NCBI RefSeq assembly: GCF_000350165.1
Contig: NZ_CAUI01000023.1
Span: 248,001 to 312,000 of the forward strand
DNA length: 64,000 nt
Reading direction: 5' to 3'
Source: Halanaerobium saccharolyticum subsp. saccharolyticum DSM 6643
GTDB taxonomy: Bacteria; Bacillota; Halanaerobiia; Halanaerobiales; Halanaerobiaceae
Shown here: piece by piece, positions 2,866-61,926 of the stretch
Numbering within the stretch: the stretch's first letter is position 1
Layout: each line of letters starts with the position of its first letter
Notes under the pieces: generated by a model
What the model was told of the DNA's origin: nothing
The model's database searches: none
Seen by the model: only the letters and a program-made list of their open reading frames with translations
Program-made: the position numbers and the translations under genes

Positions 2866-3921
2866 TCAAACAACAACCTTGATTATAGTAATATTCATAT
2901 GCTTTAAAAGATCTAATTTCTTATCAATCTCGTTTCCTTCATCATCTTCAATAAGTTTAATTACTGGTCTAGTTGGAAAACCAACATTTTGATCTTTTAC
3001 AATCCCTCTATGCCCACTGCTCAAAATAATCTCTGCTCCATTAGGATAAAATGAAATCTGTGGCAGAAATCTTTTAACTAAATGATAATCAAATAACTTC
3101 TCTGTATTATTTATAATATACTCTGCTGCCTTATAAGTTGGCCATTTATCTCTGTATACTCGATCACTAGTTAATGCATCAAAAACATCTGCAATTGCAG
3201 CTATCCTAGCAAATTCATGGATTTCATCACCTTTAATTCCTCGCGGATAGCCAGAGCCGTCTATTCTTTCGTGATGTGAATATACTACAATTCTTGATAA
3301 AGGACTAATAGAGTGGATTTGCTGTAAATAATTGAATCCTAATTCTGGATGGTTTTTAATTATTTGATATTCATGTTCTGTTAAACTATCAGATTTATTT
3401 ATTATTTCTTCAGGAATCAAGGTTTTACCTACATCATGAAGCATTCCTCCCATTCCTAATTTAAACAGATCATTTTTATTATAGCCCAGCATTTTACCTA
3501 AAGCAATACAAATAACACTTACATTTACTGAATGTTCATAAGTATAATTACTTGTGCTTTTCAAACTTACCAGGTTCAATAATACATCTTCGTTTAAAAC
3601 TAACTCATCTGTTATATCTTCAACCACATTTTTTAATTCTTTTGTATTAAGATCTAAAAAGCCTTTTTTTATTTTATCAAATGTATTTTCAACTATTTTT
3701 TTCCCTTTACGTCTGGTTCCATCTTTGATTGTTTGATTAATCTTGATATCATATGAATATTTGTCCTCTACATAAAGATGCTTAATCCCTATTTCTAAAA
3801 GTTTATCTTTATATTTATATAAATTTGTAACTCCTTTATTTAATAATATATTCCCATTTTCATAAATTGCTTTAGCTAATTTCATATCTTCTTTAATATT
3901 TTCTGTTAAAATCAAACGCAT
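2866..3921 (-). CDS. HD-GYP domain cyclic di-GMP phosphodiesterase
   Basis: 351 residues. Residues about 130-300 carry the HD-GYP signature: HSVNVSVICIALG, LHDVGKTLIP (HD), NHPELGF, and HHERIDGSGYP (the HHExxDGxGYP motif), followed by ARIAAIADVFDALTSDRVYR. The family hydrolyses c-di-GMP to pGpG/GMP. The N-terminal 120 residues are the alpha/beta region common in stand-alone HD-GYP proteins, with no recognisable sensor or membrane segment, so the protein should be cytoplasmic. It follows the PfkB gene by 38 bp. Together with the GGDEF protein at 39.6-40.6 kb and the c-di-GMP riboswitches at 61.6-61.8 kb it indicates an active c-di-GMP circuit. Confidence 0.9.
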   Translation of the reverse strand: MRLILTENIKEDMKLAKAIYENGNILLNKGVTNLYKYKDKLLEIGIKHLYVEDKYSYDIKINQTIKDGTRRKGKKIVENTFDKIKKGFLDLNTKELKNVVEDITDELVLNEDVLLNLVSLKSTSNYTYEHSVNVSVICIALGKMLGYNKNDLFKLGMGGMLHDVGKTLIPEEIINKSDSLTEHEYQIIKNHPELGFNYLQQIHSISPLSRIVVYSHHERIDGSGYPRGIKGDEIHEFARIAAIADVFDALTSDRVYRDKWPTYKAAEYIINNTEKLFDYHLVKRFLPQISFYPNGAEIILSSGHRGIVKDQNVGFPTRPVIKLIEDDEGNEIDKKLDLLKHMNITIIKVVV

Positions 3922-39645: not shown

Positions 39646-40560
39646 CTACTCCATACTAATTAAAAACTCTCTTCCTTTATTATTATACATCATTTCATCA
39701 GCTTTTCTAAATATATTATCAATATTTTCTTCTTTTTTTGTTTTTATTGCAAAACCAGTTGAAATATTTAGCTGTTCAACAAATTTATTTTTTTTATTAT
39801 ATTCTTTGACATTGTTTTTTATTCGTTCAAACAGGCTTTTAGCTGTTTCCAAACCACTATTAGATAAAATAATAGCATACTCATCGCCACCAATCCTAGC
39901 GACTACATCTCCATCTCTAGTTGATCTGTTTAAAATTTCAGCTGCTTTTTTAATATATTTATCTCCCTTTTTGTGGCCATAATTATCATTGACGTCTTTT
40001 AACTTATCTATATCAGCCACAAAAATTGTAATTGGTAATTCTCTAGAATTAGATAATCTTTCGAGTTCATTTTCAAAATACCGTCTATTATATAATCCAG
40101 TCATTTCATCGTGAAAGGAAAGATATTTAACTTCATTTAATAATTTAGTTAATTCCTTATTATTTTTTTCTATTTTTTTCTGAGTTTCGCTCAATTTTAA
40201 ATGTGTATTTACCCTTGCCAGTACTACTTCTTTTTGAAAAGGTTTGACAATATAGTCTACTGCTCCTACCTGAAAACCTTTAACAATATCTTTGCTTTTA
40301 TCAAGACCACTAATAAAAATTATTGGAATATCAGCAGTTTCAGAATTATTTTTGAGAAATTTACAAACTTCAAAGCCATTAATTTCAGGCATCATTATAT
40401 CAAGCAGAATCAAATCAGGTTTTTTAATTTTTGCAAATTCCAAAGCCCTTTTACCACTTTTAGCTACTACAATTCTATATAACTTTGCTTTTAAAATATC
40501 ACTTAAAATTTCTATATTTAATTTGCTGTCATCTACTATTAGTATGGTCTTTTTATTCAT
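39646..40560 (-). CDS. Response regulator with REC and GGDEF domains (diguanylate cyclase)
   Basis: 304 residues. REC domain 1-125: VDDSKLN, phospho-acceptor Asp in PDLILLDIMMPEINGFEVC, and the K in DYIVKPF. GGDEF domain 150-304: YNRRYFENELERL, DNYGHKKGD, and the active site ARIGGDEYAI (GGDEY variant of GGDEF). RDGD five residues before it is an RxxD inhibitory site, suggesting product feedback. It makes c-di-GMP when phosphorylated; no cognate kinase is in the window. Its start overlaps the stop of the M20 gene by 4 bp. Confidence 0.93.
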   Translation of the reverse strand: MNKKTILIVDDSKLNIEILSDILKAKLYRIVVAKSGKRALEFAKIKKPDLILLDIMMPEINGFEVCKFLKNNSETADIPIIFISGLDKSKDIVKGFQVGAVDYIVKPFQKEVVLARVNTHLKLSETQKKIEKNNKELTKLLNEVKYLSFHDEMTGLYNRRYFENELERLSNSRELPITIFVADIDKLKDVNDNYGHKKGDKYIKKAAEILNRSTRDGDVVARIGGDEYAIILSNSGLETAKSLFERIKNNVKEYNKKNKFVEQLNISTGFAIKTKKEENIDNIFRKADEMMYNNKGREFLISME

Positions 40561-56159: not shown

Positions 56160-57413
56160 TTAGGATACCCTTAATCTTGAAGGATTGGCCACATATCCAT
56201 TATCTCTCGCCTGTTTAATAGGTCTGAGAATACATTTATTTTTTAGGTATTTGCGAAGAATGTTAAGACTGCCATTCTGATCTGCATTAATTAATAGACC
56301 TTGATTAGTTTTAAAGAGACCTCTTTTAATTCTTCTGGATTTATTATAGTTGCTTTTATTTGTTTTTTCTAGATCTATTGCACTACAGCCAGAGGTATAA
56401 CTTTCATTAATTTTAACAACTTTGATACCATTTAATTTAGCTTTATATTCAATTAGTTCTTTTAATCTTTGGATTGGTATTTGGACAAAAGATTTAAGCT
56501 TGCTGCTTTGCTTAATATTTTTTATATCTCCGATTACAATAGCAGAAACCTTATTTTCAACTGCGAGCTCAACTATTTTCCAACTTGCTTTATGGAGATA
56601 ATCTCTAATATAATTTCTTCTCTTTAATCTGAGTCTTTTTATCTCGCTAGTATCTTTAATTTTACTGGTACCAAGCTGTTTCATTCTAATACTCTGCAGT
56701 CTTGCAATTTTTTTATTATAGTAAGCATTTTTAGATTTAATAGTTTTGCCATTGATAATATAACACTCAGAATTATTTTTAAATGTTAAGGTAGCTAAAT
56801 TATCAAGCCCCAAATCTACTGCCATCATGTTGGATTTCTTACTTTCTTTTGCTTCTTTAACTTTGTAGATAATTAAAAGATACCATTTTTTAGAGATGTG
56901 ATCCTGCTTGATCTTTATCTGCTGAACAGCATCTAAATCTACAATGCTTTGAACTGCTTCAGGCAGCTCAAAATTAAGGGCCTTCACATTATATTTAGAT
57001 TGTATCTTTTTAGATAAGGACAAAAGCAATTTATCATCTCTAATTCTAATAGCTAAGTTGGTAAATATTATTTCGCAGGGGTTGCTGTTTAGATGTTTAA
57101 AATTTGGTGGTCCTGGCTGCCCTTTATATTTTTGAGGATTCTTATTATAATCTTTGAGAGAAGCAAAAAAACTTTTCCAGTCCTGAGCTAACTGTTTTAA
57201 TGCCTGCTGTCTGTTATGAGAATGAAGGTATTCATTATGCCAGTTATTTTTAAACTGTTTTTCTAATTGAGTATAGACAGGTTTTTGCTCTTTATTATTT
57301 TTTACTTTATAATTAACTGTATTATATAATTTAGAGCAATGCCAGGCTAATTTCATAATTATCACTAACTGCTTATGGTTTAATTTAGGCTTAAATTTAA
57401 ATGATAACCGCAT
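56160..57413 (-). CDS. tnpB: TnpB, IS605 RNA-guided nuclease (OrfB)
   Basis: 417 residues, full length. N-terminal helix-turn-helix-like region, then RuvC-I MMAVDLGLDNLATL, a lysine-rich linker, IVIGDIKNIKQSSKLKSFVQIPIQRLKELI, NESYTSGCSAIDLE (degenerate, single-Cys zinc knuckle) and RuvC-III LLINADQNGSLNILRKYL. At the usual RuvC-II Glu position the sequence reads IVIGDI; the Glu in NESYTS may substitute as in rearranged-active-site TnpBs. It has its own good promoter. Confidence 0.92.
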   Translation of the reverse strand: MRLSFKFKPKLNHKQLVIIMKLAWHCSKLYNTVNYKVKNNKEQKPVYTQLEKQFKNNWHNEYLHSHNRQQALKQLAQDWKSFFASLKDYNKNPQKYKGQPGPPNFKHLNSNPCEIIFTNLAIRIRDDKLLLSLSKKIQSKYNVKALNFELPEAVQSIVDLDAVQQIKIKQDHISKKWYLLIIYKVKEAKESKKSNMMAVDLGLDNLATLTFKNNSECYIINGKTIKSKNAYYNKKIARLQSIRMKQLGTSKIKDTSEIKRLRLKRRNYIRDYLHKASWKIVELAVENKVSAIVIGDIKNIKQSSKLKSFVQIPIQRLKELIEYKAKLNGIKVVKINESYTSGCSAIDLEKTNKSNYNKSRRIKRGLFKTNQGLLINADQNGSLNILRKYLKNKCILRPIKQARDNGYVANPSRLRVS

Positions 57414-61053: not shown

Positions 61054-61572
61054 TTAATATAATTCTGGAACAAGACTATGTCTTAAATCCAAAGCTAAGT
61101 TTTCAATTGCAGTTCTAGAACTTTGATCTAAAATAAATTTCAAATCAAAAGTTATTTGCTGCACACCATTTTTACCGCTAAATTTTGCTGTAGTAGAATT
61201 TAAATTCTGCCATTCATAATCACTTTGATTACTTTTCCTAATCATTATTTTAGAATTCAAATTTTTATTATTCAAACGCAAATGCCATTTTGTATTACTT
61301 AAAATATTTAGTTTTAAAGCTTCTTCAATTACAATTTCTTTGCTGCCATTATAATTACTCATTAAATATGAATAATTTATATTGGGTTCTTCAATAATTT
61401 CAAGACGTTGAAATATAGGAATCTTTGCTCTTACTAAAACTCTAGCTTCACGCCTAAGTTGATCCTCATTATCAGCAGCAGCTTCAACAAAATTAGTTGT
61501 CGAAAAAACACTAAAAATTAAGAGTAAAAAGACAAAAATCCTTAACCCTGTACTTCTCAAGTTAAATTTCAT
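61054..61572 (-). CDS. Secreted protein of unknown function under c-di-GMP riboswitch control
   Basis: 172 residues. N-terminal signal peptide (GLRIFVFLLLIFSVFSTTNFVEA, likely cleaved after VEAAA). The mature part is beta-rich: VRAKIPIFQRLEIIEEP, WHLRLNNKNLN, QQITFDLKFILDQSSRTAIENLALDLRHSLVPELY. The pattern resembles pilin- or surface-associated small domains, but no family is recognised. Its control by two tandem c-di-GMP aptamers suggests a role in attachment or surface lifestyle. It starts at ATG 61572 behind AAAGGAGG. Confidence 0.75.
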   Translation of the reverse strand: MKFNLRSTGLRIFVFLLLIFSVFSTTNFVEAAADNEDQLRREARVLVRAKIPIFQRLEIIEEPNINYSYLMSNYNGSKEIVIEEALKLNILSNTKWHLRLNNKNLNSKIMIRKSNQSDYEWQNLNSTTAKFSGKNGVQQITFDLKFILDQSSRTAIENLALDLRHSLVPELY

Positions 61573-61576
61573 TATT

Positions 61577-61662
61577 TCCTCCTTTTAGCAGCCGGCTATC
61601 TCAAGTTGAGATCCTTAGCTTTGTGTCACTGCCTCAAAGCAGTTTTACCCTTTAAAAGAGGG
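61577..61662 (-). promoter_or_regulatory. c-di-GMP-I riboswitch, second aptamer, next to the SD
   Basis: The minus strand reads AAAGGGTAAAACTGCTTTGA, GGCAGTGACACAAAGCTAAG, GATCTCAACTTGAGATAGCC, GGCTGCTAAAAGGAGG. It has GGnAAAAC, the CTGC/GCAG P2 hairpin, GACACAAAGC, an ATCTC/GAGAT P3 stem and AGCCGGCTGC, the GEMM-I consensus. CCTCTTTT (61654-61661) can pair with AAAAGGAGG, extending P1 over the SD, so ligand could hide the ribosome site. Confidence 0.8.
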
Positions 61663-61671
61663 CTGAAAAAT

Positions 61672-61806
61672 AAAAATCCTGTCATATATTAAATGACAGG
61701 TCAAGCTTGCCCCTTGCCAGGTAGTTTCACAACCATTGTTTGAAAACATTAGGTCTGAAAACTTTGCGCCTCTATCCTTTCGGATTGAGTTGCCCTTTTC
61801 TGTCAG
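61672..61806 (-). promoter_or_regulatory. c-di-GMP-I riboswitch, first aptamer, with terminator
   Basis: The minus strand holds AGGGCAACTC, an ATCC-GAAA-GGAT hairpin with a GNRA tetraloop, GGCGCAAAG, a TTTCA/TGAAA P3 stem with inner GACC/GGTT and TGTTT/AAACA pairs, and CTACCTGGCAAGG: a GEMM-I aptamer. A perfect terminator CCTGTCAT/ATGACAGG (61678-61700) plus TTTTTATTTTT follows. TGACAG (61800-61805) at the aptamer 5' end can pair with CTGTCA of the terminator arm, so aptamer P1 and terminator exclude one another. Confidence 0.78.
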
Positions 61807-61926
61807 GTTAATTCTTATTTGATTTAATTATATCAGCTTGAAAATTAAAATCAAGTAATTTTTGGTAAATATTTAAAAAGGTGAATTGAAAATTACAAAA
61901 TGTTAGGTTTTGATTTTCTAGACATT

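Follow-up and report, generated by a model that had tools for sequence, protein, structure and literature searches.

The leader of a 172-codon gene in the window (by which we mean the whole 64,000-nt stretch of Halanaerobium DNA analysed) carries two complete c-di-GMP-I aptamers in tandem, and we suggest, with a probability of roughly 0.55, that it works as a two-stage c-di-GMP OFF/OFF switch that acts first on transcription and then on translation. The suggestion builds on features that were computed: the two aptamers, an intrinsic terminator after the first, a P1 helix that covers the SD on the second, the mutual exclusion of the competing pairings, and the recurrence of the doublet architecture in three related loci (G005:C14, G018 and G030).

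Layout of the leader and identity of the aptamers

The leader occupies about 250 nt of the minus strand, with an alkaline phosphatase gene on one side and the 172-codon gene on the other. A search with the Rfam covariance model RF01051 (c-di-GMP-I, gathering cut-off 35 bits) bears out the tandem proposed in the original prediction, as each of the two aptamers clears the threshold by a clear margin (Table 1); together they are two of the seven c-di-GMP-I aptamers in the whole genome. The different expression platforms foreseen for them are also present, with a terminator after aptamer 1 and the SD covered by P1 of aptamer 2. The leader thus holds a tandem in the sense of two complete aptamers of the same class, 57 nt apart, each with its own platform: the terminator lies in the gap, and the SD-covering P1 belongs to the second aptamer.

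The terminator reads CCTGTCA-TTTAATATA-TGACAGG-ATTTTTATTT, and is one of two that an independent terminator scan found in the region, against 0.4 expected from shuffles. A candidate promoter sits between the terminator of the alkaline phosphatase gene and aptamer 1; its position speaks for it, the pattern alone being at chance level (2 found, 1.6 expected). Transcription is expected to start near 61820, and the true leader would then reach to about that position, slightly beyond the span 61577-61806 of the original prediction.

Both aptamers keep the conserved binding-site nucleotides, and in the Rfam alignment the ligand-specificity position is a G and not an A in both (61793 and 61648). On our own alignment, we take these positions to be the equivalents of Vc2 G20. 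A G at the specificity position favours c-di-GMP over c-AMP-GMP (PMC9481103), and we infer that c-di-GMP is the ligand of both aptamers. Aptamer 1 contains a GAAA tetraloop and a CCUAA/AUGG tetraloop receptor. Aptamer 2 has a UUGA loop instead of GNRA and a short P3 without the 11-nt receptor; the P2 in question (61643-61628) carries a GNRA loop (GUGA) in the orthologs, and judging from the sequence, UUGA could lower the affinity for the ligand.

Table 1. Positions of the leader elements in the window and of the flanking units.
Feature	Position	Strand	Basis or remark
Terminator of upstream alkaline phosphatase gene	61965-61930		separates both units
Candidate promoter TTGATT-16-TATAAT, extended -10	61827..61854	-	pattern scan and position
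Aptamer 1, c-di-GMP-I	61717..61804	-	RF01051 49.4 bits, E 1.2e-6
5' segment of aptamer 1, complementary to 5' segment of aptamer 2	61789..61813	-
CCTGACAG, 5' strand of aptamer 1 P1, also partner of terminator 5' arm	61800..61807	-
CTGGCAAGG, 3' strand of aptamer 1 P1, directly after ligand-contacting C (61721)	61712..61720	-
Intrinsic terminator hairpin CCTGTCA/TGACAGG	61678..61700	-	sequence and independent terminator scan
CTGTCA, terminator 5' arm, predicted antiterminator partner of 61805-61800	61694..61699	-
T-rich tail of intrinsic terminator	61677-61666	-
Aptamer 2, c-di-GMP-I	61584..61659	-	RF01051 53.2 bits, E 1.4e-7
5' segment of aptamer 2 (anti-SD and J1/2), partner of 61789..61813	61642..61667	-
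CCTCTTTT, 5' strand of aptamer 2 P1 (anti-SD)	61654..61661	-
AAAAGGAGG, 3' strand of aptamer 2 P1, contains SD GGAGG (61582-61578)	61578..61586	-
Target gene, 172-aa exported protein, predicted Ig-like beta-sandwich, pilin-like	61054..61572	-

Competing pairings at the two expression platforms

In the window, P1 of aptamer 1 pairs GACAG with CTGGC plus flanking pairs (61804-61800/61720-61716), at offset 0 and with -6.1 kcal/mol. This is the place of P1 in the RF03167 consensus (the GGC variant), where the helix directly follows the ligand-contacting C and J1/2 is 6 nt long, and it is also where the 5' flank pairs best on average in an alignment of 60 aptamers (-4.4 kcal/mol, against about -1.6 to -2.6 kcal/mol at offsets 8-40). 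In G005:C14, G018 and G030, the same helix, formed by ACYCUGRCAG with CUAAGUAGGGU, reaches -8.2, -8.1 and -7.6 kcal/mol, respectively. Few individual P1 helices stand out against shuffles (p 0.0006-0.39; 0.16 for the window), owing to the biased composition of their strands; many single-helix values lie at p = 0.03-0.16, and there are only a few relatives, which are not independent of each other.

The original prediction had instead read TGACAG (61805-61800) and CTGTCA (61699-61694) as the P1 of aptamer 1, so that a folded aptamer would block the terminator (ON logic). The two segments are indeed perfect complements, and their helix, at offset 20, is worth -8.1 kcal/mol compared with the -6.1 kcal/mol of P1; as an aptamer P1 it is not supported, since it begins 20 nt past the class position and excludes the helix found there. 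It is better described as a predicted antiterminator. In the nascent fold of the window, the terminator 5' arm lies on the P1 5' strand with P ~0.9, and the antiterminator pairing amounts to -10.2 kcal/mol (shuffle p 0.009); in all four related doublets, a transcript truncated after this arm places it on the P1 5' strand, where the antiterminator beats P1 by 4.5-8 kcal/mol, in the models a difference of a size that ligand binding might offset. In full-length folds of the four, the terminator is favoured over the antiterminator by 7.3-7.9 kcal/mol, so that read-through would need kinetic control. P1 and the terminator, when P1 is forced, are compatible within one structure. Because the antiterminator excludes P1, and because the four doublets agree, ligand binding is predicted to release the terminator, and the folds make it more likely that aptamer 1 is an OFF than an ON switch; given the modest shuffle value of the window P1 (p 0.16), we regard the ON logic as weakened. 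An extension of the antiterminator into J1/2 was rejected as separate proof, as spacer-only shuffles gave p 0.02-0.43, and is taken as supportive only.

For aptamer 2, the foreseen covering of the SD by P1 is borne out and the OFF logic is supported: CCTCTTTT pairs with AAAAGGAGG just before the ATG at 61572, at offset 0 and with a duplex energy of -8.6 kcal/mol. The 3' strand is identical in all six aligned orthologs, and all SD-proximal aptamers of the family possess an anti-SD P1 strand (about -7 to -12 kcal/mol). The sole aptamer of the Halanaerobium single-aptamer orthologs corresponds in position to the window's aptamer 2, and in each case the SD is covered by its P1; without ligand, a hairpin AAAGAG..CTCTTT captures the anti-SD strand, the cost of freeing the SD is 0.4-1.2 kcal/mol, and in folds of G001, G004, G005 and G009 the unliganded SD is 45-75% unpaired. 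Since this competing hairpin frees the SD, the SD stage should be OFF, and we predict from the folds that aptamer 2 is a translational OFF switch, most clearly so in the single-aptamer orthologs. In the window the terminator stands where this hairpin would be, and the SD of aptamer 2 is, as in the doublets generally, predicted to be mostly sequestered even in the unliganded state (P in P1 0.81 and freeing cost 1.9-2.5 kcal/mol for the window); the response range of the second stage is therefore uncertain and may be weak. The freeing cost was used in place of an energy comparison with SD-P1 pairs forbidden, as that constraint turned out to be too broad.

A different arrangement was seen at L006 (1501-1577 and downstream; G000:C22:680687), and also at L094 and L098, where it is the P1 3' strand (TCTCC) that forms the anti-SD. 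These aptamers are predicted to be translational ON switches; that of L006 precedes a gene for a 93-aa secreted protein, and as it lies in the window's own genome, both signs exist in the genus.

The two-stage reading, its rivals and known systems

We propose that without ligand, TGACAG (61805-61800), weakly aided by J1/2, would capture the CTGTCA arm as it emerges, and RNA polymerase would read through. With c-di-GMP bound, the closed aptamer 1 would hold TGACAG in P1 and leave the arm free, allowing the terminator to form. Transcripts that escape would then meet the second stage, in which c-di-GMP-bound aptamer 2 sequesters the SD in its closed P1 and so keeps ribosomes from binding. Acting in the same direction, the two stages would result in deep and steep c-di-GMP repression of the pilin-like surface protein. 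The identity of the ligand, the sign of each stage and the kinetic control of the first are inferred.

The original prediction had combined an ON switch at aptamer 1, in which TGACAG:CTGTCA acts as an (extended) P1 that blocks the terminator when liganded, with an OFF switch at aptamer 2, possibly to give a band-pass response. The anatomy favours OFF for both stages, and we consider opposite signs quite improbable. It is true that this pairing is perfect and the strongest of the 5' flank in the window, that it is compatible with P2/P3 in the nascent fold, that the complementarity is kept in three relatives, and that a folded aptamer could shorten the loop which the helix closes. However, placed 20 nt beyond the class P1 start, it excludes the P1 that is present in four of four doublets, and extending it would consume J1/2, which is part of the binding site. 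Known ON switches moreover share strands between terminator and aptamer, and none are shared here: in Bc4 the terminator uses the ligand-contacting C, P1 and P3 (PMC4759541), and in pilM aptamer and terminator are mutually exclusive (PMC9262584). The homologs with a single SD-proximal aptamer have an OFF architecture, and since a kinetic ON stage would usually need more ligand than an equilibrium OFF stage, opposed stages could simply cancel each other. It is also unlikely that only one aptamer matters, be it that aptamer 1 is a recent cassette which provides constitutive attenuation, or that aptamer 2 is constitutively closed, with the other acting alone. Such a reading would fit the five Halanaerobium orthologs that have a single aptamer and no aptamer 1, the non-GNRA loop of aptamer 2 in the window with its SD mostly closed in unliganded folds, and the dominance of the terminator at full length; against this, both aptamers score above the covariance threshold with their binding-site nucleotides conserved, and the layout has been retained across four diverged doublets.

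There is a nearly even chance that the aptamers form an ordinary pseudo-cooperative pair, i.e. independent switches in series that only steepen the response; this shares the OFF/OFF signs, and its probability overlaps with that of the two-stage switch. It is the accepted reading of hundreds of c-di-GMP-I doublets (PMC9481103, PMC12452182), but the platforms here differ in level, one acting on transcription and the other on translation, and in four doublets the two aptamer 5' segments complement each other to an extent far beyond background. Their duplex is worth -16.1 kcal/mol in the window, -18.1 in G005:C14, -15.0 in G018 and -20.8 in G030 (shuffle p 0.001, 0.026, 0.004 and <0.0005, respectively), while the background from 49 other c-di-GMP-I aptamers amounts to -4.3 to -7.1 kcal/mol (sd about 3; -6.2 +/- 3.5 for the window), which places the four duplexes about 3 to 6 standard deviations beyond it. 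In full-length folds, the pairing has a P of 0.79, 0.81 and 1.00 in the three relatives and of 0.01 in the window, and when the duplex is imposed, the SD is 0.39-0.92 unpaired. The complementarity is absent from two unrelated doublets (G017, G003), and as J1/2 resembles an SD in every aptamer, part of it may be built in. When cognate and swapped duplexes were compared across the four doublets, the cognate one was not consistently best, and no covariation was demonstrated.

We hold it rather doubtful that the aptamers are physically coupled through one RNA segment. If they were, the 5' end of aptamer 1 (P1 5' strand and J1/2) would serve first as antiterminator and then, once aptamer 2 has been transcribed, pair with its anti-SD and J1/2; the SD would thereby stay accessible and neither aptamer would be active before one of them binds ligand, and the duplex would substitute for the local hairpin of the single-aptamer orthologs. 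The pair would then be truly cooperative, unlike two switches in series.

Tandem c-di-GMP-I riboswitches are common (347 doublets and 12 triplets; PMC9481103); they are the most numerous same-ligand tandems reported and are generally treated as two independent like switches. As in these doublets and in the triple tandem Bc3-5 of Bacillus thuringiensis (PMC4759541), complete c-di-GMP-I riboswitches stand in series before the gene of a surface protein. Unlike Bc3-5, where all three switches are transcriptional and ON and have terminators that overlap strands of the aptamer, the window pairs a transcriptional with a translational switch, both predicted to be OFF. Its first stage resembles Cd1 of Clostridioides difficile, a proven OFF switch in which aptamer and terminator form side by side, in competition with a transient antiterminator (PMC9262584): P1 and the terminator coexist in the window too, and transcriptional OFF logic is predicted against a transient antiterminator. 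The Cd1 antiterminator is, however, made with the 3' strand of P1 (A with T), and that of the window with the 5' strand (P with T). Bc1 of B. thuringiensis (PMC11218506) likewise acts at transcription and translation from one leader, but does so with a single aptamer and two terminators in an incoherent (opposed) manner, whereas the two aptamers of the window are predicted to be coherent. In the SAM-II/SAM-V tandem of Pelagibacter (described in PMC4759541 and classed as bi-mechanism in PMC9481103), two aptamers for one ligand also make transcriptional plus translational control possible, although the ligand is another one and the aptamers belong to two different classes.

Our search of the literature, which covered open-access papers, found none on the window leader or on riboswitch tandems in Halanaerobium. 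What could be new is the predicted 5'-strand antiterminator, combined with a translational second stage and with complementary aptamer 5' ends that possibly couple the two. If so, the leader would be well suited as a clean natural test of mechanistic coupling in tandems, as opposed to a mere steepening of the response, with natural controls in the five orthologs that keep aptamer 2 alone.

Target family, origin of the doublet and related elements

The target, which the original prediction described as a 172-residue exported protein that could not be assigned, is indeed exported and without a Pfam match, but it can be placed in a predicted pilin-like beta-sandwich family tied to c-di-GMP riboswitches. 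The AlphaFold model (pLDDT 78.8) consists of a signal helix and a beta-sandwich. By VIA-align, its closest structures are pilus subunits (FimG with Z 8.0, the PapG pilin domain with 7.4, CanA, Csu and TasA-like); as a Z of about 8 can reflect a common arrangement, we call the protein pilin-like and not a pilin. Foldseek found no confident relative in the PDB, the best match being to an esterase (E 1.4e-3).

An alignment-based search over 59 genomes of the class returned 15 confident family members, and each of the 15 is preceded by at least one c-di-GMP-I-type aptamer, in five cases as a doublet (window, G005:C14, G017, G018, G030) and in ten as a single aptamer. Two weak extra matches (G004:C4, G005:C42) have c-di-GMP-II aptamers instead, and c-di-GMP-II aptamers also occur beside further small secreted proteins of the same clusters or ahead of weak homologs (L018 401-486, L015 2852-2764, L086 838-753, L087 947-862); two unrelated c-di-GMP riboswitch classes thus serve the neighbourhood of the target gene. 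We found no description of a c-di-GMP-controlled pilin-like family in Halanaerobiales in the searchable literature. The neighbours of orthologs are consistent with a role in surface fibres: curlin, csgF and csgG lie upstream of the G001 copy, a curlin gene precedes the G009 copy and another adjoins that of G003, and the G022 copy has a secretin and a WxL-interacting-protein-like gene among its neighbours. This csg-operon adjacency holds for some orthologs only, and the curlin repeat is absent from the window's own genome.

At least two changes are required to explain the doublets on the protein tree. The tree groups the doublets G005:C14, G018 and G017 and sets the window gene separately inside the single-aptamer ortholog clade, with long branches calling for caution on G017 and with G030 not placeable. 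Aptamer 1 of the window shares 73% identity with its counterpart in G005:C14, and five single-aptamer Halanaerobium orthologs share a promoter (TTGACA..TATAAT) directly before their only aptamer, at the position of aptamer 1. The simplest reading of these sequences would be that the window gene gained a promoter-aptamer-terminator cassette of the paralogous type. An origin of aptamer 1 by duplication within the window's own genome was rejected, as no similar copy is found there; nor was a degenerate aptamer 1 found upstream of the single-aptamer Halanaerobium orthologs, which have the promoter there instead. In G024, a segment on the minus strand of L054 (10162-10130), ACCCTTGCAGAGAAAGGC, looks like the beginning of aptamer 1, with the rest of an aptamer not recognisable, and is possibly a decayed first aptamer.

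An unrelated c-di-GMP-I doublet stands before a short secreted protein in L058 (2277-2500; G003:C222) and L059 (7917-7694; G009:C21); its aptamer 1 is followed by GGAACAG/CTGTTCC arms with no T-tract terminator, and CCTCC:GGAGG covers the SD. Another group of Halanaerobium c-di-GMP-I aptamers (L003, L005, L033, L040, L041, L045, L048, L091, L093, L095, L097) mostly has little or no P1, with a conserved CTCAGG directly after the aptamer and then mostly a terminator with AGTG near the loop; these precede pilus-type genes among others. Further c-di-GMP-I aptamers in Halanaerobium precede a flgB-like operon (L001, L024, L028, L029), whose genes we judge to be of flagellar basal-body type, and chemoreceptor-like genes (L025, L034, L036), gene identities being judged from sequence in both cases.

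The GGDEF and HD-GYP domains reported elsewhere in the window are present (about 39673-40116 and about 3082-3558, respectively), in a genome with 24 GGDEF domains and 8 HD-GYP-type domains. The minus strand of the window holds four further RNAs over the Rfam cut-off, a T-box (9776-9567), a Moco riboswitch (14847-14729) and two TPP riboswitches about 700 nt apart (23822-23721 and 24641-24537), as well as a TnpB-like protein with OrfB_IS605 and Cas12f1-like TNB domains (56160-57413).
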